IMG/VR virus record: IMGVR_UViG_3300044941_000114
Coordinates: 1-31,171 of that record
DNA: 31,171 nt
Strand: one strand, 5' to 3'
Source of the DNA: a virus
The position numbers and the translations under genes are program-made. The notes under the pieces are model-generated. The model did not search any database. It saw nothing but the letters and a program-made list of their open reading frames with translations, and was not told the DNA's origin. The first letter of the stretch is position 1. The number at the start of each line of letters is the position of its first letter. Below, piece by piece: positions 3,517 through 30,792 of the stretch.

Positions 3517-3857
3517 AGATGACTCCGCACAGGGTACAACTCAGCAACAAAAAGGACTGGAAGATGCCGGAAAACACGGTGAACGTTGACCGCGAAACAA
3601 AATGGTCAAACCCATTCATCGTCGGGAAACACGGCACACGTGCCGAATGCGCCAACCTGTTTGAACTGCTGCTTGGCGGCCTAATATGCGCGTCAAAGGA
3701 TAACATCTTGGAACAAGAAGCCTATCTTGAAATGGCTAAGCGTGATATCTGGCAACTGCGCGGGAAAAACCTTGCTTGCCGGTGTCCAGAAAACGTTTCA
3801 TGCCATGCCGATACGTTGCTTGTCGCTGCAAACTTTATAAAGGACAAGAATGAATGA
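3513..3857 (+). CDS. DUF4326 family protein
   Basis: A 114-residue protein matching the DUF4326 pattern: RVQLSNKKDWKMPENT, then KWSNPFIVG, and near the C terminus LACRCPENVSCHADTLL with a Cys/His group that could bind metal. The family is common in phages and mobile elements and is of unknown function. The ATG at 3513 overlaps the preceding stop (ATGA). The frame is open further upstream, but that part is an antisense-like shadow of the preceding gene. Confidence in the family is good. Confidence 0.8.
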   Translation: MKMTPHRVQLSNKKDWKMPENTVNVDRETKWSNPFIVGKHGTRAECANLFELLLGGLICASKDNILEQEAYLEMAKRDIWQLRGKNLACRCPENVSCHADTLLVAANFIKDKNE

Positions 3858-4068
3858 GTTGGCTTTATTCGCGGGCGTTGGTAAGACGGCGATTGCCGAG
3901 AAACCAGAAATGGTGCGGTCGGTGTATTTCGACCAGACAGAAATACTGCGCGGGATTATGAAGCTGCACAGCCCGGAAGGGTTTGACTGTGAGAAGCCTT
4001 CTAACGCCATAGCTCAGGGGCGCGAGCCGGGCCTTTCCGGCGAAGCGTCCCTTGGAGCGGAGGGTTAG
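3850..4068 (+). pseudogene. Truncated DNA methyltransferase-like gene running into attC
   Basis: Starts MNELALFAGVG, the opening typical of phage cytosine-methyltransferase genes, after an AAGGA site. It continues into SVYFDQTEILRGIMKLHSPE, which resembles the N-terminal part of another phage methylase type. Coding similarity stops near residue 50 (GFDCEKPSNA), and the remaining residues are translated from attC A. No catalytic motif is present, so the product cannot be an active methyltransferase. Removing the cassette block (4006-5448) would make this frame end in SNAK and a stop at 5455-5457. Confidence 0.55.
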
Positions 4069-4073
4069 AAGGC
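3996..4073 (-). repeat. Integron attC site A
   Basis: A 78-base imperfect palindrome bounded by GCCTTCTAAC and GTTAGAAGGC. Read on the minus strand it has the attC layout: outer core CTTCTAAC, inner box GCTCCAAGGGACGC, a loop region, inner box GCGCCCCTGAGC, outer core GTTAGAAG. The inner boxes pair except for extra bases on one side, the feature that marks an attC. The placement of the extra base gives a right-to-left orientation. Confidence 0.8.
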
Positions 4074-4526
4074 ATGGACAACGGAGCGACGTGCACGATG
4101 TGCGGAAGATACACAAGCAACAAGGACGGCACGCCAGACGGCGGGTGCTTGCTCTGCGGAGATGACGACGAAGCGCCAAACCTGCGGGAGATTTGGGCCG
4201 CTGCCGACAAGAAGGCAAAAGACTGGCGCGAGGCCGGCGAGGAAAAGCTGCTGCGGCAAATGCTCGACGCACGCGAAGGGTTGAAGTCGCTCGGCTGGCG
4301 CGACGGCAAATACGCGCCGAAGGACGGCACGCGGTTTCTGTCGATTGAGGATGGCAGCACGGGCGTTTTTCCGTGCTACTGGATGACCAACAAGCACATG
4401 GCGGAAGGCGGTGGATTCTGGAGCGAGGCGCATGGCGATTTGTGGCCGACGAACCCAACGCTGTGGAAGCCGATGCCTTCTAACGCTGAGGTAAGCGGCG
4501 GAGCTGCTTTTCCGCCGTCCGCTTGA
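4074..4526 (+). CDS. Cassette a: hypothetical protein with Cys-rich N terminus
   Basis: A 150-residue protein. The N-terminal 30 residues contain TCTMCGR and a later CLLCGDDDE, four cysteines in two CxxC pairs that could form a zinc site. The middle (GWRDGKYAPKDGTRFLSIED, then FPCYWMTNKH) resembles small phage proteins with a WxxG-APKDGT core. The ATG directly abuts attC A, and the last 14 residues are translated from attC B. The ORF is bounded by GTTAGAAGGC and GCCTTCTAAC, exact reverse complements. Its strand is opposite to that expected from the attC orientation. Function unknown. Confidence 0.75.
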   Translation: MDNGATCTMCGRYTSNKDGTPDGGCLLCGDDDEAPNLREIWAAADKKAKDWREAGEEKLLRQMLDAREGLKSLGWRDGKYAPKDGTRFLSIEDGSTGVFPCYWMTNKHMAEGGGFWSEAHGDLWPTNPTLWKPMPSNAEVSGGAAFPPSA

Positions 4527-4540
4527 CCTAATTGTTGGGC
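4475..4540 (-). repeat. Integron attC site B
   Basis: A 66-base element from GCCTTCTAAC to GTTGGGC. Inner boxes GGTAAGCGG and CCGCTTGACC pair around a CCGCC/GGCGG extension, with one extra C on the GACC side. On the minus strand it reads GCCCAAC-AATTA-GGTCAAGC ... GCTTACC-TCAGC-GTTAGAA, very close in layout to the attC of aadA cassettes (an AATT spacer and an extra C in the first inner box). Confidence 0.85.
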
Positions 4541-4561
4541 ATGACAACTTTGGAGAATGAA

Positions 4562-4810
4562 ATGGACGAAATGCATGACCTTTTTGGAGTGTTTGATGAC
4601 CCCATTACGGAAGCAGCGCGAATGCTGGCGACACACGATCTTGTCGTTGTTCCCGGCAGCGTGATGCGTGACTGCCTGGATGTTTTGCACATCTTGGTAT
4701 GCGATTCCGAAAGCGTGGAAGAAGCGATGTTGACGCAGGCATTGATCCACAACATTGAGGCGGCCTGGGCGCAAAGCATGACGCCCAACGCTGAGGTAAC
4801 AGGCGCATGA
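4562..4810 (+). CDS. Cassette b: hypothetical protein (82 aa)
   Basis: An acidic, helical protein starting MDEMHDLFGVFDDPITEAAR. The start at 4562 is chosen because GGAG lies six bases before it; an ATG at 4541 would add seven residues. The last residues (NAEVTGA) are translated from attC C. The cassette is bounded by GTTGGGC (4534-4540) and GCCCAAC (4783-4789), exact reverse complements. No known domain. ORF strand is again opposite to the expected cassette direction. Confidence 0.6.
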   Translation: MDEMHDLFGVFDDPITEAARMLATHDLVVVPGSVMRDCLDVLHILVCDSESVEEAMLTQALIHNIEAAWAQSMTPNAEVTGA

Positions 4811-4861
4811 CAGCAAGCGAAGCGCCGCTGGCAGGCGTCCGTGTTGACCGTGGTGTTATGC
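4783..4861 (-). repeat. Integron attC site C
   Basis: A 79-base element from GCCCAAC to GTTATGC. Inner boxes GGTAACA (4795-4801) and TGTTGACC (4842-4849) pair with one extra C, on the same side as in site B. The two outer cores do not pair with each other (GCCCAAC against GTTATGC), as expected at a junction between two different cassettes. Confidence 0.8.
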
Positions 4862-5457
4862 GCGTGGCCGCACTATTTGTGCAGCCTGACGGATGCTACG
4901 CGGGACTGCCGGACGTTGATGCTTGGCCGGAGCAACGGGACGCAAGGCGCTACTCCGGGCCGCTGCCCGTGGTGGCGCACCCGCCGTGCCAGTTGTGGGG
5001 CGCGATGGCGGTTGTGAACTATGCCCGGTGGGGCGGCGAGCACAATAAGCCAGGGAACGACGGCGGCTGTTTTGCGGCGGCGCTTGAAAGCGTGCGGCGG
5101 TTTGGCGGGGTGCTCGAACACCCGGCGAAAACGAAAGCATGGTCAGCGCACGGACTGGCGAAACCGGCGGCGATTGGCTGGCATATGACCATCGATGGCG
5201 GATGGGTGTGTGAGGTTTGGCAAAGCGCTTACGGGCACCGCGCCAACAAAGCGACGTGGCTTTACTACCACGGCACGAACCCGCCGTTTGAACTGCGGTG
5301 GGATCGCCCGGAAGGAACGCACCAGATCGGGTTTCACGACCAACGAGGGAAGGCGGCGAACAAGCCGACCCTAGGTAAGCGAGAGGCGAACGCCATGCCT
5401 TTGGAATTTCGGGATGAACTGCTGCGCCTGGCGTTGATGGCGCATAACGCGAAATAG
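4858..5457 (+). CDS. Cassette c: phage protein with VAHPPCQLWG motif
   Basis: A 199-residue protein beginning MRVAALFVQPDGCYAGLPDV; the start codon lies inside the core of attC C. Key segments are VVAHPPCQLWG (near residue 40), GGCFAAALESVRRFGGVLEH (about 63-82) and YGHRANKATWLY (about 124-135). I recognise this as a conserved phage/prophage protein of unknown function. The PPC and E-H elements recall parts of cytosine methyltransferases, but the cofactor motifs are not evident. The gene is bounded by GTTATGCGC and GCGCATAAC, exact reverse complements, marking it as a cassette. Confidence 0.75.
   Translation: MRVAALFVQPDGCYAGLPDVDAWPEQRDARRYSGPLPVVAHPPCQLWGAMAVVNYARWGGEHNKPGNDGGCFAAALESVRRFGGVLEHPAKTKAWSAHGLAKPAAIGWHMTIDGGWVCEVWQSAYGHRANKATWLYYHGTNPPFELRWDRPEGTHQIGFHDQRGKAANKPTLGKREANAMPLEFRDELLRLALMAHNAK
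5440..5448. other. Right boundary of the cassette block (unpaired core site)
   Basis: GCGCATAAC is the reverse complement of GTTATGCGC at 4855-4863, the other end of cassette c. No inner boxes follow it, so there is no attC here. Read right to left, this is where the block joins phage DNA, as expected if the first cassette entered a non-attC target. Confidence 0.6.
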
Positions 5458-5476: not shown

Positions 5477-5731
5477 ATGACCGAATTCATCCTCTTCTGC
5501 AGCGCCTTCACCACCGTCTTCGCGCTCGGCTTTCAGCAGCAGAACGTCATTCATCGGCATTTCCGGTCGGCAGCGCTCACCAGCTTCGCCATCGGCGCCA
5601 GTCAAATCTATCTCTGGCGCACTCTTCCGGATTCCAACTGGAGCGAGATTATCGCCACCCTGATGGGCGGGCCGGTCGGCATCATCGCGGCCATGTGGCT
5701 GCACCCCAAAATCCTCAAGCACAAAAGGTAA
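5477..5731 (+). CDS. Small membrane protein (84 aa)
   Basis: Starts MTEFILFCSAFTTVFALGFQ after an AGGA site. Two to three hydrophobic stretches (about residues 3-20, 32-46 and 61-75) suggest an inner-membrane protein. It sits immediately before ssb. The size would allow a holin-like or superinfection-exclusion role, but no family motif supports either. Confidence 0.65.
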   Translation: MTEFILFCSAFTTVFALGFQQQNVIHRHFRSAALTSFAIGASQIYLWRTLPDSNWSEIIATLMGGPVGIIAAMWLHPKILKHKR

Positions 5732-5734
5732 AAA

Positions 5735-6169
5735 ATGGCATCAGTCAACAAGGTGATTCTGGTAGGCAACCTCGGGCGCGATCCGGAAATCCGCTATTTG
5801 CCGAGCGGCGACGCGGTTGCAACATTGAATATCGCCACCACCGAAACCTGGAAAGACAAAAACGGCGAGAAACAGGAAAAAACCGAGTGGCACCGCGTGT
5901 CCATGTTTGGCCGGCTGGCCGAGATTGCCGGTGAATACCTCAAGAAAGGCAGCCAGGTCTACATCGAAGGACGCATCGAAACCCGCAAGTACACTGACAA
6001 GGATGGGGTAGAAAAATATGCGACCGAGATCAAGGCCAGCGAAATGAAAATGCTGGGCGGCCGCGCGCAATCCGGCGATAGCGCGGCCAGCGGATCAGAT
6101 TCATCCCCCGCAAGAACCCCTGCCAGTGCACCGCCCAGCGGCCTGGAAGAAGACGACATTCCGTTCTGA
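5735..6169 (+). CDS. ssb: Single-stranded DNA-binding protein
   Basis: A 144-residue SSB that coats single-stranded DNA during replication and recombination. The N-terminal OB-fold (about 1-110) is clear: [60 protein letters not shown] low-complexity Ser/Ala/Pro linker follows, and the acidic tip EEDDIPF is the usual site for docking partner proteins. The length is normal for phage SSBs. It lies upstream of xis and int in the early operon. Confidence 0.97.
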
Positions 6170-6176
6170 GGACGAC

Positions 6177-6596
6177 ATGCCAAGATCAGCCAAACCCAAG
6201 CGCGCCTACAAGCCGCGCCCCATCGTCAAGCCTCTCAAGGCTCGCAACGACTGGGTGATGGAAGGCGAAGTCCATGCCGCCCTGCTTGCGCTGCAGGCCG
6301 ACCAGGTGCAAGAAGAACACCTCGCCATGCTCGCCAGCCACGCCGACCTTGTGCGCCGGCTGGACACCGCACCCTTCCACGCCAAGCGCCATGCACAGAC
6401 CATCGTGCGGATTCTCGCCGCGATCATGCAGCGGCCAGGCCATCCCGTCACCCAGCTCGAACAAGCCGCCATCCGCGCCGCCATTCAGGTCACCCTGCCC
6501 GTCATGCGGCAGGCAAGCAACTACGCCGTCGAACGAGCTGCGCGAGCCGCATGGCACGCATTCAACCGGGACGGTGGGTTAAAAGTGGACATCTGA
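6177..6596 (+). CDS. Hypothetical early protein (139 aa)
   Basis: Starts MPRSAKPKRAYKPRPIVKPL after GAGGACG; the basic N terminus (about 20 residues) is followed by helices (VHAALLALQADQVQEEHLAM) that look like a compact all-alpha domain. It lies between ssb and xis, only 7 bases after ssb, so it may act in DNA metabolism. I recognise no motif or family. Confidence 0.65.
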   Translation: MPRSAKPKRAYKPRPIVKPLKARNDWVMEGEVHAALLALQADQVQEEHLAMLASHADLVRRLDTAPFHAKRHAQTIVRILAAIMQRPGHPVTQLEQAAIRAAIQVTLPVMRQASNYAVERAARAAWHAFNRDGGLKVDI

Positions 6597-6870: not shown

Positions 6871-7703
6871 AAGCCGAGTTGCGCGGCGCCATCGCCCGGC
6901 AAAAAACCGTCAACATCCCCGGCGACCCGCCCCTGACCGACATCATGGGCCTCTACATCCTGCACGCCGACACCCTGCGCAGCCCGACCAGCGCAAAACA
7001 GCACGCCGCCCGCATCGGACGATGGCTCGAGCCCTACCGCGCCAGCCAGTCCAGGCAAGCCGCCGCGCACATCGTCAAGGACATGACTGGGCACTATGCC
7101 GCCGGCACCATCAACCGCAGCCTCGGCACCCTTAAAAAAGCCCTTCGCCTGGCCTGGGAGCACGGCCACATCCCCATCGACTACAGCACACACGTCAAGC
7201 GGCTACCAGAGAACAACGCCCGCAGCACCTACCTCACCATCGAACAGGTCAAGAAACTCGCCGACAAAGCCAGCGAGAACACCCGCGCCGCCATCTGGAT
7301 CGCCATGCTCACCGGCGCCCGGCGGGGCGAAATCTGCAAGCTGCGCCAGGAAGACATCGGCCGCGACAGCCTCCTCATCCACGCCGGCAACACCAAAACC
7401 CTGCGTACCCGCACCGTTCCAATTGTCCCGGCCCTGCGGCCTTGGCTCAAATACATCCCCTTGCAGATCAACTGCGAAGGCATCAAGACCGGATTCCGAC
7501 GCGCGCGCGAAGCCGCCGGCATGGAACACGTCAACTTCCACGACCTTCGTCATAGCTGCGCCAGCGTGCTGATTGAAGCCGGCGCCGACCTCTACACCGT
7601 TGCCAAAATTCTCGGACACGCCAGCGTTAAAACCACCGAGCGTTACGCACACATGCAGATCGAACGCCAGCGTCAGGCCATGTTAAAAGCGTTCAAGAGA
7701 TAG
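6756..7703 (+). CDS. int: Phage tyrosine integrase
   Basis: A 315-residue site-specific tyrosine recombinase. The N-terminal part is arm-binding and core-binding; the catalytic set is visible: R189 (LTGARRGEI), H262 and R265 (FHDLRHS), H288 (ILGHASVKTT) and nucleophile Y297 (TERYAH). The start MSTWIDKNGRRH is chosen because AGGGAG lies six bases upstream. It lacks the extra insertion of integron integrases, so it is not the enzyme for the cassettes at 4-5.4 kb. It ends 28 bases before a tRNA-Val gene and the attP-like repeats, so tRNA-Val is the likely attachment target. Confidence 0.95.
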   Translation: MSTWIDKNGRRHVGIMAGGKRIHRILPQGATAGDAKLIEAELRGAIARQKTVNIPGDPPLTDIMGLYILHADTLRSPTSAKQHAARIGRWLEPYRASQSRQAAAHIVKDMTGHYAAGTINRSLGTLKKALRLAWEHGHIPIDYSTHVKRLPENNARSTYLTIEQVKKLADKASENTRAAIWIAMLTGARRGEICKLRQEDIGRDSLLIHAGNTKTLRTRTVPIVPALRPWLKYIPLQINCEGIKTGFRRAREAAGMEHVNFHDLRHSCASVLIEAGADLYTVAKILGHASVKTTERYAHMQIERQRQAMLKAFKR

Positions 7704-7708
7704 ATAGA

Positions 7709-7734
7709 CCATTTTGCCAACACCGGCAAAATGG
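7709..7734. terminator. Perfect 10-bp inverted repeat between int and tRNA-Val
   Basis: CCATTTTGCC and GGCAAAATGG flank a 6-base loop. It lies just after int, and its right arm includes the CCA end of the tRNA. There is no T run for int on the plus strand, so it may be a weak terminator for both converging transcripts, or part of the recombination site. Confidence 0.5.
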
Positions 7735-7806
7735 TGGGCGCGACAGGGTTCGAACCTGTGACCCCTACCGTGTGAAGGTAGTGCTCTACCACTGAGCTAC
7801 GCGCCC
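7732..7806 (-). tRNA. tRNA-Val (anticodon CAC)
   Basis: A complete, well-formed tRNA with encoded CCA. Acceptor GGGCGCG pairs with CGCGCCC; the anticodon arm is CTACC-TTCACAC-GGTAG; the T arm is ACAGG-TTCGAAC-CTGT. Anticodon CAC reads GTG codons. It sits between int and the tail genes, where phage attachment sites in tRNA genes occur. It may be phage-borne or a host attB half. Confidence 0.93.
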
Positions 7807-7810
7807 GGAT

Positions 7811-7984
7811 TGCACCGGAAATTACACAGGGCCAGCCGAGAACCGCTAAAACACAGGGTAAACCCCTGCCGTGTGAAGGCAGTTGAAGCCTCCTGACAGG
7901 CTTTGAAGGCGCGTGGTTGACGCCTATGCGCGGCTGTGGTGGCCTGTAGTAGGCAGCAAATTACACCGGAATTACACAGGGCCA
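7811..7984. other. Probable attP region: tRNA anticodon-arm copy with flanking direct repeats
   Basis: At 7866-7882 the sequence CTGCC-GTGTGAA-GGCAG repeats the tRNA-Val anticodon arm 101 bases away. The loop is identical and the stem differs at both partners of one pair, so pairing is kept. Direct repeats flank it: CACCGGAAATTACACAGGG at 7813-7831 and CACCGGAATTACACAGGG at 7964-7981, with ACACAGGG also at 7851-7858. This fits a core site in an anticodon loop with integrase arm sites on each side. Confidence 0.6.
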
Positions 7985-8048
7985 ACCCTACCGGGAGTGA
8001 CGAGCGCGTTATACAGTAAGTTTTGCATCACGTTGCCTCTAACCTGGG

Positions 8049-8399
8049 TTAGAGCGCGATGCCGGCGCTCCATGCGCTGCCTGTCCTGACGCACAGTTTC
8101 GACTCGGACTCGACCCACGCGAGCCAGCCTGTCTGTGGTGCATAGAAAACCCACGCAGCGTCGATCCAGATGGCGACGTTGCCAGCCTGCCCCGACCATG
8201 CGCCGGTCGGTGCGGTGCCAACGATGTAGCGGTCGCCGTTGGCCGGGCTGACAGGCGGGGTATCGAGGGTGCGGCTGATGACGGACAGCCCGACGATCGC
8301 ACCCAGCATGACCAGATTGGCGTCCATTTCGGTTTTATACGGATCGCCGAGCGTCCAGTTGTAGCTGAGCGGCAGGTTTGGGTGAGTCGATGCGGGCAT
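8049..8399 (-). CDS. DUF2793 tail-associated protein
   Basis: A 116-residue protein matching DUF2793, a small domain found next to phage tail tip genes. Diagnostic segments are SRTLDTPPVSPANGDRYIVG and AWVFYAPQTGWLAWV. Family members may bind a surface ligand or cap the tail fibre; their role is not established. It is the last gene of the late operon, 2 bases after the tail tip gene and before the attP region. Confidence 0.85.
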   Translation of the reverse strand: MPASTHPNLPLSYNWTLGDPYKTEMDANLVMLGAIVGLSVISRTLDTPPVSPANGDRYIVGTAPTGAWSGQAGNVAIWIDAAWVFYAPQTGWLAWVESESKLCVRTGSAWSAGIAL

Positions 8400-8401
8400 G
8401 G

Positions 8402-10627
8402 TCAGAGTCCTCCGTAGTGTTGGCCGTAGGCAACGCCGTACCCGGCGCGGTAGACGGTGATGCGGTGTTTGCGCCAGCTGTCGAATGTGCCGCGCTTGCT
8501 GTAGAGTTCGAGCGTGAGGTTCATGTTCAGCCGCCCGCCGGGCAGGCTGGAATCGGCGGCTTCAGTGGCGGTCGTGTACGTCTGGCCGGTGCCCACAATG
8601 CCGCTGTAGGCGCGCAGCAGCGGGCCGCTGCCGGGCGGGAAGCTCTCACCGTAAATGTTCAGGGTATAGGTCACGCCCGGCTCGGGGCCGATATTGCCCT
8701 CGTCCTGGTGGACGATGTAGCCGGTTTGCGTGAGGCGGTCGCGGTGCGCCCAGGTCACGGCCACGTCGCCGGTGATGGCGAGCGGGTAGGGCGTCCCGTT
8801 GATCTGTACATTGCCAGGCGGATAGGGCAGCCCCTGCCGCCCGGTGAGCGTGACCGCCGGGCCATTTGACACAGCTACCTGCGCCCCTTCGCCCAAACCA
8901 GCCACTGGCGCGATATAGGCGTGCACGGTTTCACCTGGCGCGCGTATGATCCCCTCCGGCGCGGCGAACTCGTTGACGATGATCAGGCGCCGCCCGGCCG
9001 GATGCGCCACCGGAACGGTATCGAGCACGCCGCGCGCGAGGTTGATCGTGCCTGCCGTGGTATCAATGGCCAGCACCTCGACGGCCTCCGCAACATTTCC
9101 GGAGGAATCGAGGATGTAGCCATAGTCGCCTGCCGCCACGGGCGCGAGGTCATGCCCGCCAGTGTAGCCGATGGCGCCGGTATCCGCCGCCGCTTGTGGC
9201 AGCGCGGGCAGCGTCATGGCCGGCGCATAGTCGTCGGTGGCGCGGTAAACAGGCTGGGCGATGCCGTCGCCAGTGTAGAGATTGAAATTGAGCTGGGTGT
9301 CGTTCGCCACCACCGCCAGCGCGGCAGTAAACGTGTCACTTGCCTGCGTGTAGGCCAAATCGGCTGGGCTAGAATTGCGCGCCACCTCCCAGTATGGCAC
9401 CTCGAACAAGAGCGATGCGTCTGGCGGCACGGGGGCAAGCGAGGGTGGAATAAAGCCAGGCTGCGTCAGAACAAGAGGCTGATCGTCAAACGCGAACACA
9501 TCCTCCACGGCCTTGATGGTCACGTAGCCGGACTCTAGCGTGCCGTAATCGATGTCTGCCACCCGCATGATAATGCCGGTATCCAGGCCGAGTTCCGGCC
9601 ACGTCAGCCGGAAAACGTCGCCTGGGTACAGCATCGCGCCATCGCGCAGCACCTTGAGCGTTGCGCGCGCCAGCGGCGTGCTGAAGATGCGCAGATCGCG
9701 CGCCGCCACGCGGGCGGCAAGGTCATCATTGGTAATACCTGGGTATTCCATCTTGCGTGTCACGACGCCGCCCTGCGCCTGGATATTGGCCAGATTCTGC
9801 ACAGAGACCGTTTTCGGCTTCCAGGTGGCACGGTCGGTGTAGACCACACTCACCTCGTTGACGGTCTCGCCCAGCCCGGCGCGCTCGAACGATTCGAGCG
9901 CGTGCACATTGTGCGGCCCAAGCCACGGCAGCGCGTTGATGTCGTAGTCGCCACGTAGCAGGCGCAGTTTAAATACGCCACCTACGCCCATGTCCTGATA
10001 CAGCACACCGCCGATGTGATCCAGTACGATCTGGATGAAATCTCGAATCGGTTGTTGCCTGGTAAAAATAAAATTTAAACAGAACGACTCGTTGTATAAC
10101 TGATTTGCGGCTTCAGTGAACGATTCGTCATCGATCTGGCTATACGGATAACCCATGCCCCATTCTGTATCGGTGAGGCACTCAAAAATTATCCCTACTG
10201 GCGACGCGCCGTCGCCATAGCATGACCCCTCATTATTGCCATGCGTTTGAACCTTTCTAAAGACCCTCACCGCGATGGGCTTGATATAAGGATTGTTCGC
10301 ACTCAGCATCGGCCTGCGTGCCACCAGCGAGACGACATTTCTGAATGCTGGCACAGTTCCCAGCTTACCGGCCAGGTAGTCATTGACACCCTGGTCAGGC
10401 CCGCCCATCAAAACATCAAAATAGCCTTTAATTCCCCCCTCGCGCTTGTCTCCTCCCCACAGCTTCGGCGCGTCAACAAAAATTTGTTCGTCTGCCGCAC
10501 CACCCGTCCACGCTGTGCGTTCTCCGTATTGAATCTCTCTTATTGCATCCGCTTTTCGGCACAGCACAAGGTGCATGCCCATGTAATAACGGTAGCCGGT
10601 GGTGCTGGATTTTTTTTTGCTACCCAC
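8402..10627 (-). CDS. Tail tip / host-specificity protein (gpJ-like, phage-tail_3 type)
   Basis: A 741-residue tail tip protein that should form the distal tail hub and carry fibre attachment. The N-terminal part (GYRYYMGMHLVLCRKADAIR, then GGIKGYFDVLMGGPDQGV) matches the phage tail protein type often annotated as 'phage-tail_3'. The middle (about 195-300) has hub-like segments, and the C-terminal third is beta-rich, as expected for fibronectin-like or jelly-roll domains. It is shorter than lambda gpJ (1132 residues). The start overlaps the stop of the preceding 69-residue gene by 8 bases. Confidence 0.85.
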   Translation of the reverse strand: MGSKKKSSTTGYRYYMGMHLVLCRKADAIREIQYGERTAWTGGAADEQIFVDAPKLWGGDKREGGIKGYFDVLMGGPDQGVNDYLAGKLGTVPAFRNVVSLVARRPMLSANNPYIKPIAVRVFRKVQTHGNNEGSCYGDGASPVGIIFECLTDTEWGMGYPYSQIDDESFTEAANQLYNESFCLNFIFTRQQPIRDFIQIVLDHIGGVLYQDMGVGGVFKLRLLRGDYDINALPWLGPHNVHALESFERAGLGETVNEVSVVYTDRATWKPKTVSVQNLANIQAQGGVVTRKMEYPGITNDDLAARVAARDLRIFSTPLARATLKVLRDGAMLYPGDVFRLTWPELGLDTGIIMRVADIDYGTLESGYVTIKAVEDVFAFDDQPLVLTQPGFIPPSLAPVPPDASLLFEVPYWEVARNSSPADLAYTQASDTFTAALAVVANDTQLNFNLYTGDGIAQPVYRATDDYAPAMTLPALPQAAADTGAIGYTGGHDLAPVAAGDYGYILDSSGNVAEAVEVLAIDTTAGTINLARGVLDTVPVAHPAGRRLIIVNEFAAPEGIIRAPGETVHAYIAPVAGLGEGAQVAVSNGPAVTLTGRQGLPYPPGNVQINGTPYPLAITGDVAVTWAHRDRLTQTGYIVHQDEGNIGPEPGVTYTLNIYGESFPPGSGPLLRAYSGIVGTGQTYTTATEAADSSLPGGRLNMNLTLELYSKRGTFDSWRKHRITVYRAGYGVAYGQHYGGL

Positions 10628-10829
10628 CGCGCGCCTCCCGTGCCCGTGCGGCCTCTACCGCGCGCGCTGCCATCGCGTCGCCGGTGGCGAGGATTGCCGA
10701 TGCAGGCAGCCCTTCGCGCAGGAATGCCATCCAGTCGAGACCGTGCCGCGCGAACCAGTCGCGCGCGCCCTGCGCGCATAGACGCGCCGCGCGCATGTCG
10801 TTCACCGTAACGATGGTCTCGCCGCTCAC
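10620..10829 (-). CDS. Small tail-operon protein (69 aa)
   Basis: Starts MSGETIVTVNDMRAARLCAQ, with a WFARHGLDWMAFLREGLPAS segment. Small proteins of this kind are conserved between tail tip genes in phages with this tail module; they may chaperone the tip complex. Both ends overlap neighbouring genes, which supports translation. No function is established. Confidence 0.7.
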   Translation of the reverse strand: MSGETIVTVNDMRAARLCAQGARDWFARHGLDWMAFLREGLPASAILATGDAMAARAVEAARAREARGG

Positions 10830-11062
10830 TTTTTACCGCCCTTGGTCTTGATCGGCTGGGCGTAGAGATCGCCGTACCACACACAGTTCGCGCCGGTAAT
10901 CAGCACCTCTCCAAAAACCACCGGAATCTCGCGTCCTTCTTCTGCGGTAGGCACATCGAAATCAGAAATCGACGCGGGTTTGGGAGACGGCGGCTTGGGC
11001 GCGAGCGCAGCCTGAATCAGACTGCTCACGACAAAAACCAGCAACTGAACTAAAAAATTCAT
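10826..11062 (-). CDS. Tail assembly protein with hydrophobic N terminus (78 aa)
   Basis: The N terminus MNFLVQLLVFVVSSLIQAAL is hydrophobic and is followed by a Pro-rich linker and the segment REIPVVFGEVLITGANCVWY, with a GDLY continuation. This pattern is conserved in a group of tail assembly proteins encoded just before the tail tip gene. The hydrophobic start resembles that of lambda gpI-type proteins, which are needed to build the tip. Confidence 0.7.
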   Translation of the reverse strand: MNFLVQLLVFVVSSLIQAALAPKPPSPKPASISDFDVPTAEEGREIPVVFGEVLITGANCVWYGDLYAQPIKTKGGKK

Positions 11063-11063
11063 G

Positions 11064-11879
11064 TTAAAAAATTCCAGCGTTGAAAGGGTTTTTTTGCGGA
11101 ATAAACGGAAAACCTCCGTAATTATCTAAATTGTTGAACCGGCTCTGGCAGGTCTCCATCGTTTTATCGCAGCCGCGGTAAAACCGCACCGCATCGCCAG
11201 GTGCGAATGACTCCGGCATCATCAGTGTAGCCATTTCGGCATCGTTTGCGACGATCATTGCCATCTTGTCGCCTGAAAGCGATTCCACCCATCCACCTGC
11301 CAGTTCGCCTGCTGGCAGCGTGCCAGGTGTAACGGCGATTTGTCTTCCAGAAACTGCCGTGAGCGCGGTGACAATAGGCACCGGCAGCGCCCTGCACAGA
11401 TTGTCGTAAAGCACATGCGTGCATCTGCGCGCGTAGAGCTGACGCAGCGCGTTGCGTGCAAGACTTGCGGACGACGGCTCGCATTCAAGCCGTGCGCCAT
11501 CTGCCGTCCATGCCACGCCAAGCACGCGCCCGCTCCAGAGCGTAGTGATTTGCGCCTCATCATCAAGCCGTTGCAGCCGAAAAACCGTCACAGCCATAAC
11601 GCCAGGAATAGACAAGTCGCGAAACACGGCCAGCAACTCCAAGTCTCTTGCAACTTCCAAAGACAACGAGTTGCGCGAAGGTTCAGAAGACTGCGCAACC
11701 GCGCCACGCCTGATATAGCGCGCACTGTACACGCCATCAAATGGCTCATCAATCATGCCTGATGTATCGAAATCGTGCGATGCAGACGTGTAGCGCCAGA
11801 TGCTTGTGCCGCGCGCGAAGCAATATAGCTCTACCGGATTCCCGTCTGCTTCAGATGTCTCAACTGATGAATAGGTCAT
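11064..11879 (-). CDS. Phage BR0599 family tail protein (DUF2163-like)
   Basis: A 271-residue tail hub/baseplate component. The C-terminal signature is clear: a YRGCDKTMETCQSRFNN segment followed by YGGFPFIPQKNPF, the Cys-containing end of the phage BR0599/DUF2163 family. The N-terminal part (VELYCFARGTSIWRYTSASH) is the beta-rich DUF2163-like domain. Gene transfer agents and many siphoviruses encode this protein just upstream of the tail tip gene, as here. The four cysteines near 146-249 may bind metal in the assembled tip. Confidence 0.85.
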   Translation of the reverse strand: MTYSSVETSEADGNPVELYCFARGTSIWRYTSASHDFDTSGMIDEPFDGVYSARYIRRGAVAQSSEPSRNSLSLEVARDLELLAVFRDLSIPGVMAVTVFRLQRLDDEAQITTLWSGRVLGVAWTADGARLECEPSSASLARNALRQLYARRCTHVLYDNLCRALPVPIVTALTAVSGRQIAVTPGTLPAGELAGGWVESLSGDKMAMIVANDAEMATLMMPESFAPGDAVRFYRGCDKTMETCQSRFNNLDNYGGFPFIPQKNPFNAGIF

Positions 11880-26308: not shown

Positions 26309-27819
26309 TGCGGCGGCTCCTCTTTAGGCTGCGCGGGCGCAGCGGGGTTGGGGGAAGGCATCTGGCTGCTGAAGGCCAGGCCGCGTGCGGCGACATCGCG
26401 CCGCCACGCGGCAATCTGTTCCAGCACGTCGCGCGGGTTCGCGCCCCGGCGGCGGATGGCCTCTGGCTCGCTGGCAAATCCGGCCTGCACCAGCGACAGC
26501 CAGGCTTCCGCTTCGCGCATGGGGTCGATCCACGGCATGGACTGGCCGATGAAAAGTGCGTCATCCTCGCTGTTGGGCACGAGGTCGGGCGGCGGCACGA
26601 TCACGCCCGAAGCAATGGCGGCGCGGACGAAGTTTTCCCACACCGGGCGCACGAACATGCCGACGAATTCGTCGGTCAGCACGGCGTAGTTCACCCACTG
26701 CTCGACCAGCTCCTGACGCTGCGCGGAATAGGTGCCGTTGTAGTCCCGCGCGATGCTGGAATAGCTCGCACCGATGCCTGCGGCAACGGCGCGCAGTTGC
26801 CCCTGACGCCAGGCCACGGCGTTGACGTTCGGGCGCTTGGTGTCGATGATGCCCACCTCCTCGCCCGCCCCGAGGTTATCGAGGATGGTGCCGGCTTCCA
26901 GGCCGATTTCGCGCGGCATCCGGTTGCCGTTGGCATCGATGGGGCGCGGATCATCGTCGGGGTTGTAGGCGTCAGGACTGCCGCGCCGCACGTACATGGT
27001 GAGGCGGGCGGCGAGCTTGGCCGCCACGCGCTCGGATTCTTCGTAGTCGCGCACATCTTCCAGCCGGTTCAGCACGCTGGCGAATTCGGACACGCCGCGC
27101 CGCTGGTGCAGACGGTCGCTGTCGTACAGATGCAGTACGCGGGACGCCGGCACGACCCGGTAGCCGCCGCGCGTGGCGGTCAGCCCGTCCTGCGGATGGG
27201 TGCGGTAGAAGTGATAGTTGCGCGGCCGCCCCCAGGCGTTGAGTTCGATGCCCTGACGCAGGTTTCGGCCGGGGTCGTCGAGGTCGAGCGGGAGCATGTC
27301 CGGCTCGAAGATTTCCAGCGAAAACGGCACTTCGGTGCCGTGATCGAGCAGCGGCACTGCGCCGGAAAGCATTTGCGCGAAGGCCTCGCCATCGCGCAGC
27401 CAGGTGCGCGCCATGGCGCGCTGCACCTTGGAAAACGGCATCCGCCACGTCACCTCCGGCTTCATGCACCAGTCGCGCCACAGCTCGCGCAGGCGCGCGG
27501 CGAATTCGTCGTGGATGCTGCCGTCTTCGCGGCGCGGCTGCGGCTCCACGCCGATTCCGGACGCGCCGACGATGTTGTTGGTGAGGGTGCGCAGGATGCC
27601 GCGCGCCAAATCGTGATTGCGTTCGAGGTAGCGCGCCTGATCGCGCAGCGCACGCGCGCCCTGCCGCACCAGTTCATCCGGATGCCCGCCGCCCTGGTGC
27701 AGGATACGGAACCGCGACTCGCGCGCCGCTTCGTAATACGCGCGCGGGGAATGTGTGGCTGACTCCGCGCGGGAATTCGCGCGGGCGCGGGCGCGGGCGA
27801 GTGATGACGCTACCGGCAT
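26305..27819 (-). CDS. Portal protein (lambda family)
   Basis: A 504-residue portal forming the dodecameric DNA channel at one capsid vertex. Recognisable parts: LERNHDLARGILRTLTNNIV near residue 70, HLYDSDRLHQRRGVSEFASV, YSSIARDYNGTYSAQRQELV and the C-terminal GQSMPWIDPMREAEAWLSLV, followed by a Pro-rich tail. The length is typical. It precedes the protease-capsid gene and overlaps its start. The start at 27819 overlaps the end of the 74-residue gene by 10 bases. Confidence 0.96.
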   Translation of the reverse strand: MPVASSLARARARANSRAESATHSPRAYYEAARESRFRILHQGGGHPDELVRQGARALRDQARYLERNHDLARGILRTLTNNIVGASGIGVEPQPRREDGSIHDEFAARLRELWRDWCMKPEVTWRMPFSKVQRAMARTWLRDGEAFAQMLSGAVPLLDHGTEVPFSLEIFEPDMLPLDLDDPGRNLRQGIELNAWGRPRNYHFYRTHPQDGLTATRGGYRVVPASRVLHLYDSDRLHQRRGVSEFASVLNRLEDVRDYEESERVAAKLAARLTMYVRRGSPDAYNPDDDPRPIDANGNRMPREIGLEAGTILDNLGAGEEVGIIDTKRPNVNAVAWRQGQLRAVAAGIGASYSSIARDYNGTYSAQRQELVEQWVNYAVLTDEFVGMFVRPVWENFVRAAIASGVIVPPPDLVPNSEDDALFIGQSMPWIDPMREAEAWLSLVQAGFASEPEAIRRRGANPRDVLEQIAAWRRDVAARGLAFSSQMPSPNPAAPAQPKEEPPQ

Positions 27820-28034
27820 CGTCCGTGCGAGATGTTGATCCCGCCCAAGGTAGGAATGCCAGCCGCGCGGGCTTTTTCAGTGCCGGCCCGCGCTTCCCAT
27901 TCGCGCCGCCCGGCGCGGATTTCGGCCAGGTTGGCCATGGTGAGCGAACGCCCGCCCATGGCGAACGACTGCCCGGCCAGCACGGCCTGCTCCGCCTCGA
28001 TATACAGCGCCAGCATGTCGGTTGCGATACTCAT
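27810..28034 (-). CDS. gpW / DUF6148-like head completion protein
   Basis: A 74-residue protein: LALYIEAEQAVLAGQSFAMG and a LTMANLAEIRAGRREWEARA segment, the pattern of small head-joining proteins (gpW-like, DUF6148) encoded before the portal gene. It is the first gene of the visible late operon. No terminase is found upstream, so the normal TerL-W-portal order is broken here. Confidence 0.75.
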   Translation of the reverse strand: MSIATDMLALYIEAEQAVLAGQSFAMGGRSLTMANLAEIRAGRREWEARAGTEKARAAGIPTLGGINISHGRCR

Positions 28035-29477: not shown

Positions 29478-29576
29478 TCAGCTCTTATAGGGAACTGACT
29501 TCTTGCGAACGATGTTGCCCTTGAACATCCGGTATTTGCCGGAGCCAAGCTGGCGCGCGCCTGAATTTTCAGCCAT
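29478..29576 (-). CDS. 32-residue basic peptide encoded after the radical SAM gene
   Basis: A short peptide beginning MAENSGARQLGSGKYR and ending VRKKSVPYKS, with 9 basic residues among 32. The ATG overlaps the end of the radical SAM gene (the two frames share 8 bases) and has GGAGAG five bases upstream. Its stop faces a converging gene. Size and placement next to a radical SAM enzyme recall a modified-peptide precursor, but it has no Cys-rich core and could be an unrelated small protein. Confidence 0.55.
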   Translation of the reverse strand: MAENSGARQLGSGKYRMFKGNIVRKKSVPYKS

Positions 29577-30792
29577 GATGTCTCTCCACTTTATCAACGT
29601 AAACGCAGGCATCGGCCGGGATGGATGGGGTTGCGAATCCGTCTGCCGATACCGCCATGAGTGGAACGCCGTCATCGTCTGAAGCGTACCCTCCAAGATA
29701 GTCTACACGGGCAAAAGCGTTTAGTCTAAACGGGGTCGGTAAATCTTCCATACGCCAGAAAAAACCATGCACGTCGCGCATGGTTTTGGCGGTTTCGGTT
29801 TTTTCGCCCAGGTTGCGAATGTTGCGACCGAACTTGACCAGGAACTCCTTGTAAACCGAGCGCGTGCCCGTGTGGATGGTCGCCCATCGATCAAAGGCGT
29901 CGAATGGCAGCATCGCGGGTTTTCCGCCTGCGGCGAGACGGCAGTCCCGAACGAAGGCATCCAGCGTGGGCACAAACGGAAAGCCGAGTTTGAAGTAATC
30001 ATCCCAGAATCCCTGCTCGGGGGCTTCGCTCACGCCCATGCGGATGATGTTGATGCCGCACGCGAGCGCATGGTCGAGGGCGGCGCGGTAGGTGTGCTCG
30101 TGCGGTTCGATGCGCTTGCGGCTGTATTCGATGAATTCGGTTTCGCTGTTTTTGAAGCGCTCGGACAGGTTGGCAATCTGGAAGCGTGAGAGGTGCAGCG
30201 GCTGGTGCCAGATGTGGCGCACCCCGGCTTCGGCCAGCTTGCTGATTTCTGCCTCGATGTCATCCCACCAGGGCGGGATCAAGGGATTGAGCCCGACGAT
30301 GACCATGTGTCCGCACGCTTTCAGCCGCCGGATGAATTCCATGCGCTGTGCGTGTGGCGGGTTGCCTGGTTCGTAGGTGCGGGCGATGGCTTCGCGGTTG
30401 GTGGTGAGGCTGACATAGACCAGGGTGGGCGGGCTGTTTTCGATGAGCGCTTCGGCCTCCGGCACGCCGCCGCGCGTCTGGTAGACCAGCCGGAATCCAT
30501 GACGCTGGCTGGATTCGTGCAGCGCCTGGAAAGTCGGGTAGTTGGACTTGGCGCACGGGTCGCTGTCGTTGGCGGTCATCACCGGGTGGCCGGCCTGCAG
30601 GAGTTCGTACTCGATGCAGGTCGAGCCGCGTTCGTACCAGCCGGCAATGCGTAGCAGGTCGGCGGCTTCGGTTTCGCGGTCTGGTTTGTTGAGGTTGGCG
30701 AAGCAGTACACGCAGCCGTGCGAACAGCGGTTCATGCCGAAATGGAGGACGAAAGGCGAAATGAGGTATTCGCCCGTGTAGAGGCGGATCAT
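29569..30792 (-). CDS. Radical SAM enzyme (SPL-like)
   Basis: A 407-residue enzyme with a classic [4Fe-4S] motif, C23-SHG-C27-VY-C30 (NRCSHGCVYCFAN), that should bind S-adenosylmethionine and generate a radical. The barrel continues with VMTANDSDPCAKSNYPTFQA, VYVSLTTNREAIARTYEPGN and HMVIVGLNPLIPP, resembling spore photoproduct lyase-like proteins (SplB family) that act on DNA bases. The C-terminal half (about 240-407) has no domain I recognise. It lies directly after a ParB-like gene. Which substrate it acts on is not shown. Confidence 0.85.
   Translation of the reverse strand: MIRLYTGEYLISPFVLHFGMNRCSHGCVYCFANLNKPDRETEAADLLRIAGWYERGSTCIEYELLQAGHPVMTANDSDPCAKSNYPTFQALHESSQRHGFRLVYQTRGGVPEAEALIENSPPTLVYVSLTTNREAIARTYEPGNPPHAQRMEFIRRLKACGHMVIVGLNPLIPPWWDDIEAEISKLAEAGVRHIWHQPLHLSRFQIANLSERFKNSETEFIEYSRKRIEPHEHTYRAALDHALACGINIIRMGVSEAPEQGFWDDYFKLGFPFVPTLDAFVRDCRLAAGGKPAMLPFDAFDRWATIHTGTRSVYKEFLVKFGRNIRNLGEKTETAKTMRDVHGFFWRMEDLPTPFRLNAFARVDYLGGYASDDDGVPLMAVSADGFATPSIPADACVYVDKVERHHG

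Follow-up and report, generated by a model that had tools for sequence, protein, structure and literature searches.

Inverted attC-bounded gene cassettes in a phage early operon and a clade of integron integrases among related phages

Introduction

The viral record IMGVR_UViG_3300044941_000114, analysed over its whole length of 31,171 bases and referred to below as the window, carries three short elements among the genes of its early operon. A preliminary description interpreted them as attC sites delimiting integron-type gene cassettes, and saw in them a possible route for cassette spread between hosts. Cassettes of this type serve bacteria in spreading resistance genes. This raises the question of whether these elements are genuine attC sites and, if so, whether they are pieces of a bacterial integron captured by chance or parts of a system that belongs to phages.

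The window belongs to a phage: genes for portal, head protease/major head, tape measure, tail and endolysin proteins occupy its minus strand, and an early module on the plus strand ends with a tyrosine integrase gene beside a tRNA-Val gene. A gene for a DUF4326 protein (PF14216; 3564-3857) stands in the early operon directly before the cassette array. A second tRNA gene, for tRNA-Met, is found at 1600-1674. At 29569-30792 lies the gene of a 407-aa protein matching phrog_13321 which, by eye, resembles radical-SAM/spore-photoproduct-lyase proteins and is an odd neighbour for phage packaging genes.

Results

Identification of attC sites

attC sites were sought in two ways: a blind scan of both window strands for the attC layout, and a covariance model whose training set was 18 attC sites, taken from class 1 plasmid integrons and from the chromosomal integrons of bacterial MAGs and none of them from phages. 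Both approaches returned the same three sites:

3996-4073, canonical on the minus strand: attC A; model match 3999-4070, crossover between 4004 and 4005; 33.1 bits, E 3e-7; blind scan 11.8
4475-4540, canonical on the minus strand: attC B; model match 4478-4540, crossover between 4483 and 4484; 46.0 bits, E 5e-11; blind scan 12.7
4783-4861 (outer box to 4863), canonical on the minus strand: attC C; crossover between 4788 and 4789; 36.0 bits, E 4e-8; blind scan 12.5

Outer and inner boxes, spacers of about 5 nt and an extrahelical base on one inner box are present at all three. In the 31 kb window the covariance model found these sites and no others, all on the minus strand, with the next best match at 12.1 bits. 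The blind scan found them alone at a score of 10.5 or more; in 155 kb of shuffled control sequence it gave one match at 11.0-11.4 and zero at 11.5 or above. The outer cores are GCCTTCTAAC (3996-4005) and GTTAGAAGGC (4064-4073) for attC A, GCCTTCTAAC (4475-4484) and GTTGGGC (4534-4540) for attC B, and GCCCAAC (4783-4789) and GTTATGCGC (4855-4863) for attC C, and a further core, GCGCATAAC, closes the array at 5440-5448. The cores bounding each ORF are exact reverse complements (GTTAGAAGGC/GCCTTCTAAC, GTTGGGC/GCCCAAC and GTTATGCGC/GCGCATAAC) and the partners at cassette junctions are unlike, which is the arrangement that the preliminary description had reported for all three cassettes; its coordinates and cores for the elements likewise agree with both searches. 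It had named failure of an attC model at every site as one result that would speak against it, and every site passed.

Folding as single-stranded DNA, which it had also proposed, gave a more divided answer: at each site the plus strand gives the better fold of the two strands, with a strong z-score for attC A (-5.2) and modest ones for B (-1.4) and C (-1.7). Folding as the sole test of attC identity was rejected, being weak for B and C and not decisive. Rfam searches of the window at gathering thresholds returned two tRNAs only, with the attC family absent from the matches.

Inverted repeats lying between operon genes, two of them with modest folding z-scores, could also be read as transcription terminators or chance palindromes devoid of any role in recombination. 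We give this reading practically no chance of being right, as it is already refuted by the model scores, obtained with boxes, spacers and extrahelical base all in place, and by mobility that is exact to the cassette edges (see below). The three elements are thereby confirmed as genuine attC sites of integron-type cassettes.

Cassette boundaries and gene orientation

The orientation reference was the attC of aadA1 in R100 which, read with its gene, has an 8-nt L'' (GTTCAAGC) and a 7-nt L' (GCTTAAC). This asymmetry sits on the minus strand of the window attC sites and the ORFs are on the plus strand; the genes hence do not run along their attC, a usual trait of cassettes that is not an absolute requirement. 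Since attC is canonical on the minus strand here, the ORF at 4074-4526 goes with attC A, that at 4541-4810 with B and that at 4858-5457 with C. The earlier assignment, which had put each attC with the wrong ORF, is therefore corrected: attC lies upstream of its own ORF, not downstream. Each window cassette is an attC followed by its ORF, with crossover at the plus-strand AA/C. This position follows from the orientation and has two independent confirmations: the attC interior before the cassette-3 ORF is common to the window and loci L002, L003, L105 and L117, among which the left outer box and the interior after the ORF vary, and the breakpoints between two near-identical phages (L169 and L170, see below) fall at the same position. 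The cassettes and their surroundings are consequently delimited as follows, with cassette bounds taken from the attC positions:

3850-4068, plus: remnant ORF at the upstream array edge, reading into attC A; match to phrog_24333 DNA methyltransferase (0.0035)
4005-4483, plus: cassette 1, attC A and ORF 4074-4526, whose last codons lie inside attC B
4484-4788, plus: cassette 2, attC B and ORF 4541-4810, whose end lies inside attC C
4789-5447, plus: cassette 3, attC C and ORF 4858-5457, with its start codon within the box GTTATGCGC; phrog_12600 (5.7e-68)
5477-6596, plus: holin-like gene, SSB gene and one further gene, in the place occupied by attI and intI in the related loci L102 and L179
6729-7703, plus: phage tyrosine integrase (PF00589), not IntI, followed by tRNA-Val at 7732-7806, which adjoins the integrase as in L102 and L179; module 75% identical to that of L102 and L179

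ORF 1 and ORF 2 run over the cassette junction, so that their final residues are supplied by the next attC. ORF 3850-4068 begins like the Dcm-like methyltransferase cassette of L179 and ends like another methyltransferase; judged from these matches, it looks like a decayed promoter-proximal array end made of two methyltransferase remnants.

The same inversion runs through the related arrays. At 27 related loci the model detected about 143 attC sites, all but a few weak matches being opposite to the reference gene. ORF length was rejected as a measure of gene strand because GC-rich DNA makes it misleading (57 plus, 27 minus, 25 ambiguous), and codon scoring with a bacterial control was substituted for it. 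This caller, whose codon model had few training genes, places the gene against the direction of attC in 84 of the 86 phage-type cassettes, including a few arrays from bacterial MAG contigs, versus 2 of 22 cassettes of bacterial chromosomal integrons, the other 20 having the gene along attC; cassettes are not independent of one another and the p-value of this comparison is indicative only. Genes that are antisense in their cassette are unlikely to be expressed from a bacterial integron's own promoter, which makes easy spread to bacterial integrons less credible. These observations suggest that inverted cassettes form a pool largely closed to bacterial integrons.

Cassette cargo and mobility

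The cassette-3 protein, a member of phrog_12600, has many relatives among viral contigs. In the closest ones, nucleotide similarity sets in at 4793 to 4854, the exact point varying with whether the relative has the attC interior in common, and stops at 5448-5450, with unrelated flanks on either side; attC sites are found on both sides of the relatives in L007, L011, L103 and L105. Cassette 3 moves as a unit among differing neighbours in unrelated phages, the opposite of a single sequence repeated without variation in many related phages, which the preliminary description had singled out as adverse to its proposal. Its central claim, integron-type gene cassettes within a phage early operon, is supported by this mobility together with the attC model.

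Relatives of cassette 1 occur in the inverted attC arrays of L255 and L257 and, lacking attC, in L256, and cassette 2 has one weak relative among viral contigs. The phrog_12600 family is present in phages both with and without attC, and attC-free copies are widespread. Its gene tree contains at least five switches between attC-flanked and free states on well-supported branches, and 13 on the best tree, a rough count in which the attC state was called by a pattern scan at a lenient threshold. Since the same gene family is found with and without attC in phages, the long-standing question of cassette origin becomes testable. The cargo of related arrays includes a PAPS-reductase-like protein, a Lar-like restriction alleviation protein and a DHH phosphoesterase; judged from the minority of cassettes with a recognised function, it is consistent with accessory or counter-defence genes.

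Integron integrases and attI sites in related phages

A contig of a Thiobacillus MAG (L102) contains an attC array with cassette 3, an integron integrase scoring 476.7 bits (cut-off 265) and then the phage integrase-tRNA-Val module. The viral contig L005, which also encodes terminase, portal, major head, tape measure, tail and primase proteins, has the same order: cassettes, cassette 3 among them, then attI, intI and phage integrase. A search with the L005 IntI yielded 22 viral loci, including the query itself. Most of those whose upstream sequence is long enough have an attC array immediately 5' of intI, in the same transcriptional direction. Between array and intI is a conserved attI-like element, composed on the minus strand of TGTCGTtGAATTTAA-GTT and repeated GACAT boxes, whose pattern matches 26 stretches of viral DNA.

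In a tree of 57 IntI sequences, from which the virus records L170, L171 and L185 were excluded as near-duplicates, 15 virus IntIs group with those of Thiobacillus and of a gammaproteobacterial MAG (L137), the latter adjoining a phage-type integrase, in one clade with support of 99/99, separate from the other 37 bacterial IntIs and from class 1. Those of the phage clade are full-length proteins that retain the IntI insert as well as the conserved residues of tyrosine recombinases. In total, at least 18 IMG/VR records carry an IntI of this clade, mostly with an attC array and the conserved attI directly upstream. Zero matches above 60% identity to the L005 IntI were found among 50,697 phage records. 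A terminase of phrog_2 was matched in 2 of 24 records, which we do not interpret as a lack of terminase because other terminase families apply, as in the L005 contig.

The IntIs of L183 and L160 fall outside the phage clade. L160 (virus record G024, 27085-28017) is a divergent IntI that scores 354 bits, above the cut-off, on a long branch. The virus record L183, with ten attC sites and an IntI grouping with bacterial IntIs, is probably not a phage integron but a chromosomal one adjacent to a prophage. Virus Rctr41k (KX853513.1; L259, 4680-5678) has an IntI-like gene of 48% identity, and the model finds no attC in the surrounding 10.6 kb. Nine attC sites in two blocks (6997-11644) were observed in L087, a phage contig related via the holin-like gene; no IntI was found in this 18.9 kb record.

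Cassette turnover between near-identical phages

All relatives are metagenomic, and the metagenomes that yielded L169 and L170 are different ones. These two loci are 99.9% identical over 4 kb containing attI, intI and downstream DNA, and 98.5% identical in the left flank. Their arrays differ by several insertions, deletions or replacements of whole cassettes, and at the aligned junctions, that at attI included, identity ends or begins at AAC. L171 matches L169 at 100% identity, and on its contig are genes for head, tail and integrase proteins. The pair L184 and L185 differs by about 51 bp, which we do not count as a cassette difference. L172 and L173, which have related IntIs, share individual attC sites of about 95% identity inside arrays otherwise different, a further hint of cassette exchange.

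A host IntI, instead of that of the phage, could be responsible for the cassette differences that separate L169 from L170. A wider rival reading is that phage cassettes in general move solely through host integron integrases, with the phage IntI being incidental or decayed. An IntI above the cut-off is indeed found in five of six bacterial genomes with cassette-3 relatives (although one copy in G001 and one in G004 are themselves phage-type), and phage arrays without IntI exist, such as those of the window and of L121. We nonetheless hold this to be unlikely: the full-length phage-clade IntIs with their conserved residues and IntI insert, the conserved attI beside them, and array differences that extend to the attI-proximal cassette all argue against it.

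Missing integron parts in the window

The window contains neither of the two elements that, in relatives, make the integron complete. No intI was found in its 31 kb; the tyrosine integrase scores 62 bits with TIGR02249 (cut-off 265) and is without the IntI insert. The phage attI motif was not found at the array end (5448). With three attC sites within 0.9 kb and no intI, the window classifies as a CALIN, with the qualification that the record is a fragment and an IntI is possible elsewhere in the genome. An empty site in a close relative, sought via the holin-like gene and the tail protein, was not found; the closest tail-gene relative, L118, stops short of the early region. Another tail-gene relative, L121, has an inverted array too, and a true IntI is absent from its contig. 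Cassettes and the integrase module link the window to the IntI-bearing phages, and most of the remaining phage sequence differs. Our reading is that the window phage lost its integrase, or took over the array from a phage that had one; the array may be inert because intI and attI are absent from the window.

A rival account would make the window a CALIN fragment captured by chance from a bacterial chromosomal integron, with no phage-specific system involved. Capture of such pieces by prophages is documented in a previous study (PMC9892861), the window has no IntI, and the Thiobacillus MAG carries more IntI copies beyond the L102 contig. Against this account stand the orientation of the arrays' genes, opposite to attC where 20 of 22 bacterial chromosomal cassettes have the same direction, the separate clade formed by the phage IntIs, and the wide occurrence of the phrog_12600 cargo in phages without attC, and we regard it as very improbable.

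Discussion

Our results indicate that the window genes are, with high probability, cassettes of a phage-borne integron lineage with inverted genes. Intact members have a single transcription direction through phage early genes, cassette array, attI, intI and phage integrase. IntI, attI and attC keep their normal geometry to one another, and nearly every gene is antisense in its cassette. We infer that a phage early promoter would read through the cassettes toward intI, and that IntI would recombine the folded attC strand (here the plus strand) with attI at the plus-strand AA/C, so that new cassettes would enter at attI, the promoter-distal end. In the window, holin-like and SSB genes stand in place of attI and intI, and its cassettes would therefore be either fixed or mobilised by the IntI of a host or a co-resident phage. 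The identity and orientation of the attC sites, the IntI and attI of relatives and the cassette-exact differences between near-identical phages are direct observations; the phage IntI as catalyst of these differences, the transcription and the fitness role are inferred.

Some viruses thus appear to run their own gene-swapping system. If true, viruses possess a site-specific exchange platform of their own for early genes, and the speed with which phage accessory genes turn over at exact boundaries would be explained. A bolder version, in which an integron lineage dedicated to phages has a cassette pool of its own, the inversion makes genes useful in phage operons but not in bacterial integrons, ordinary phage genes are repeatedly converted to cassettes and back, and early operons are a cassette birthplace, is put forward tentatively, as an idea we would rather doubt than adopt at present.

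Our search of the open-access literature turned up no description of an IntI/attI lineage that is specific to phages and has inverted cassettes. attC cassettes in phages had been called little described, a statement that must be tempered, as attC clusters in phages were already published in 2023: Qi et al. (PMC9892861) present 17 phage CALINs and a few captured integrons, and several of the phage attC sites recombine with IntI1. As here, those CALINs consist of attC-bounded cassettes, in virulent and temperate phages, some with methyltransferase cargo; unlike here, the main text is without a phage IntI clade, a conserved phage attI, gene inversion or turnover in near-identical phages.

The same source describes a Vibrio prophage array as a subset of the host chromosomal integron. 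Prophages of Vibrio anguillarum and Shewanella (MK672802, MK672805 and MZ568829) resemble the phages described here in that the records bear an IntI gene, but these IntIs have only about 45% identity to a phage-clade IntI. The reverse integrons of Treponema and other bacteria (PMC3607928, PMC6557892) similarly have intI and cassette genes transcribed one way; however, in those it is intI that is flipped and reads toward attI, whereas the intI of the phage relatives, located 3' of attI, is read in the direction leading away from attI, the window being without intI, and it is the cassette genes that are flipped. Finally, class 1 integrons (IntI1 of R100) and the chromosomal integrons of bacterial MAGs share with the phage systems the attC architecture, the IntI family and the geometry of intI, attI and attC, and differ from them in that their genes run along attC and away from attI, whereas those of phage arrays run against attC, toward attI and intI.
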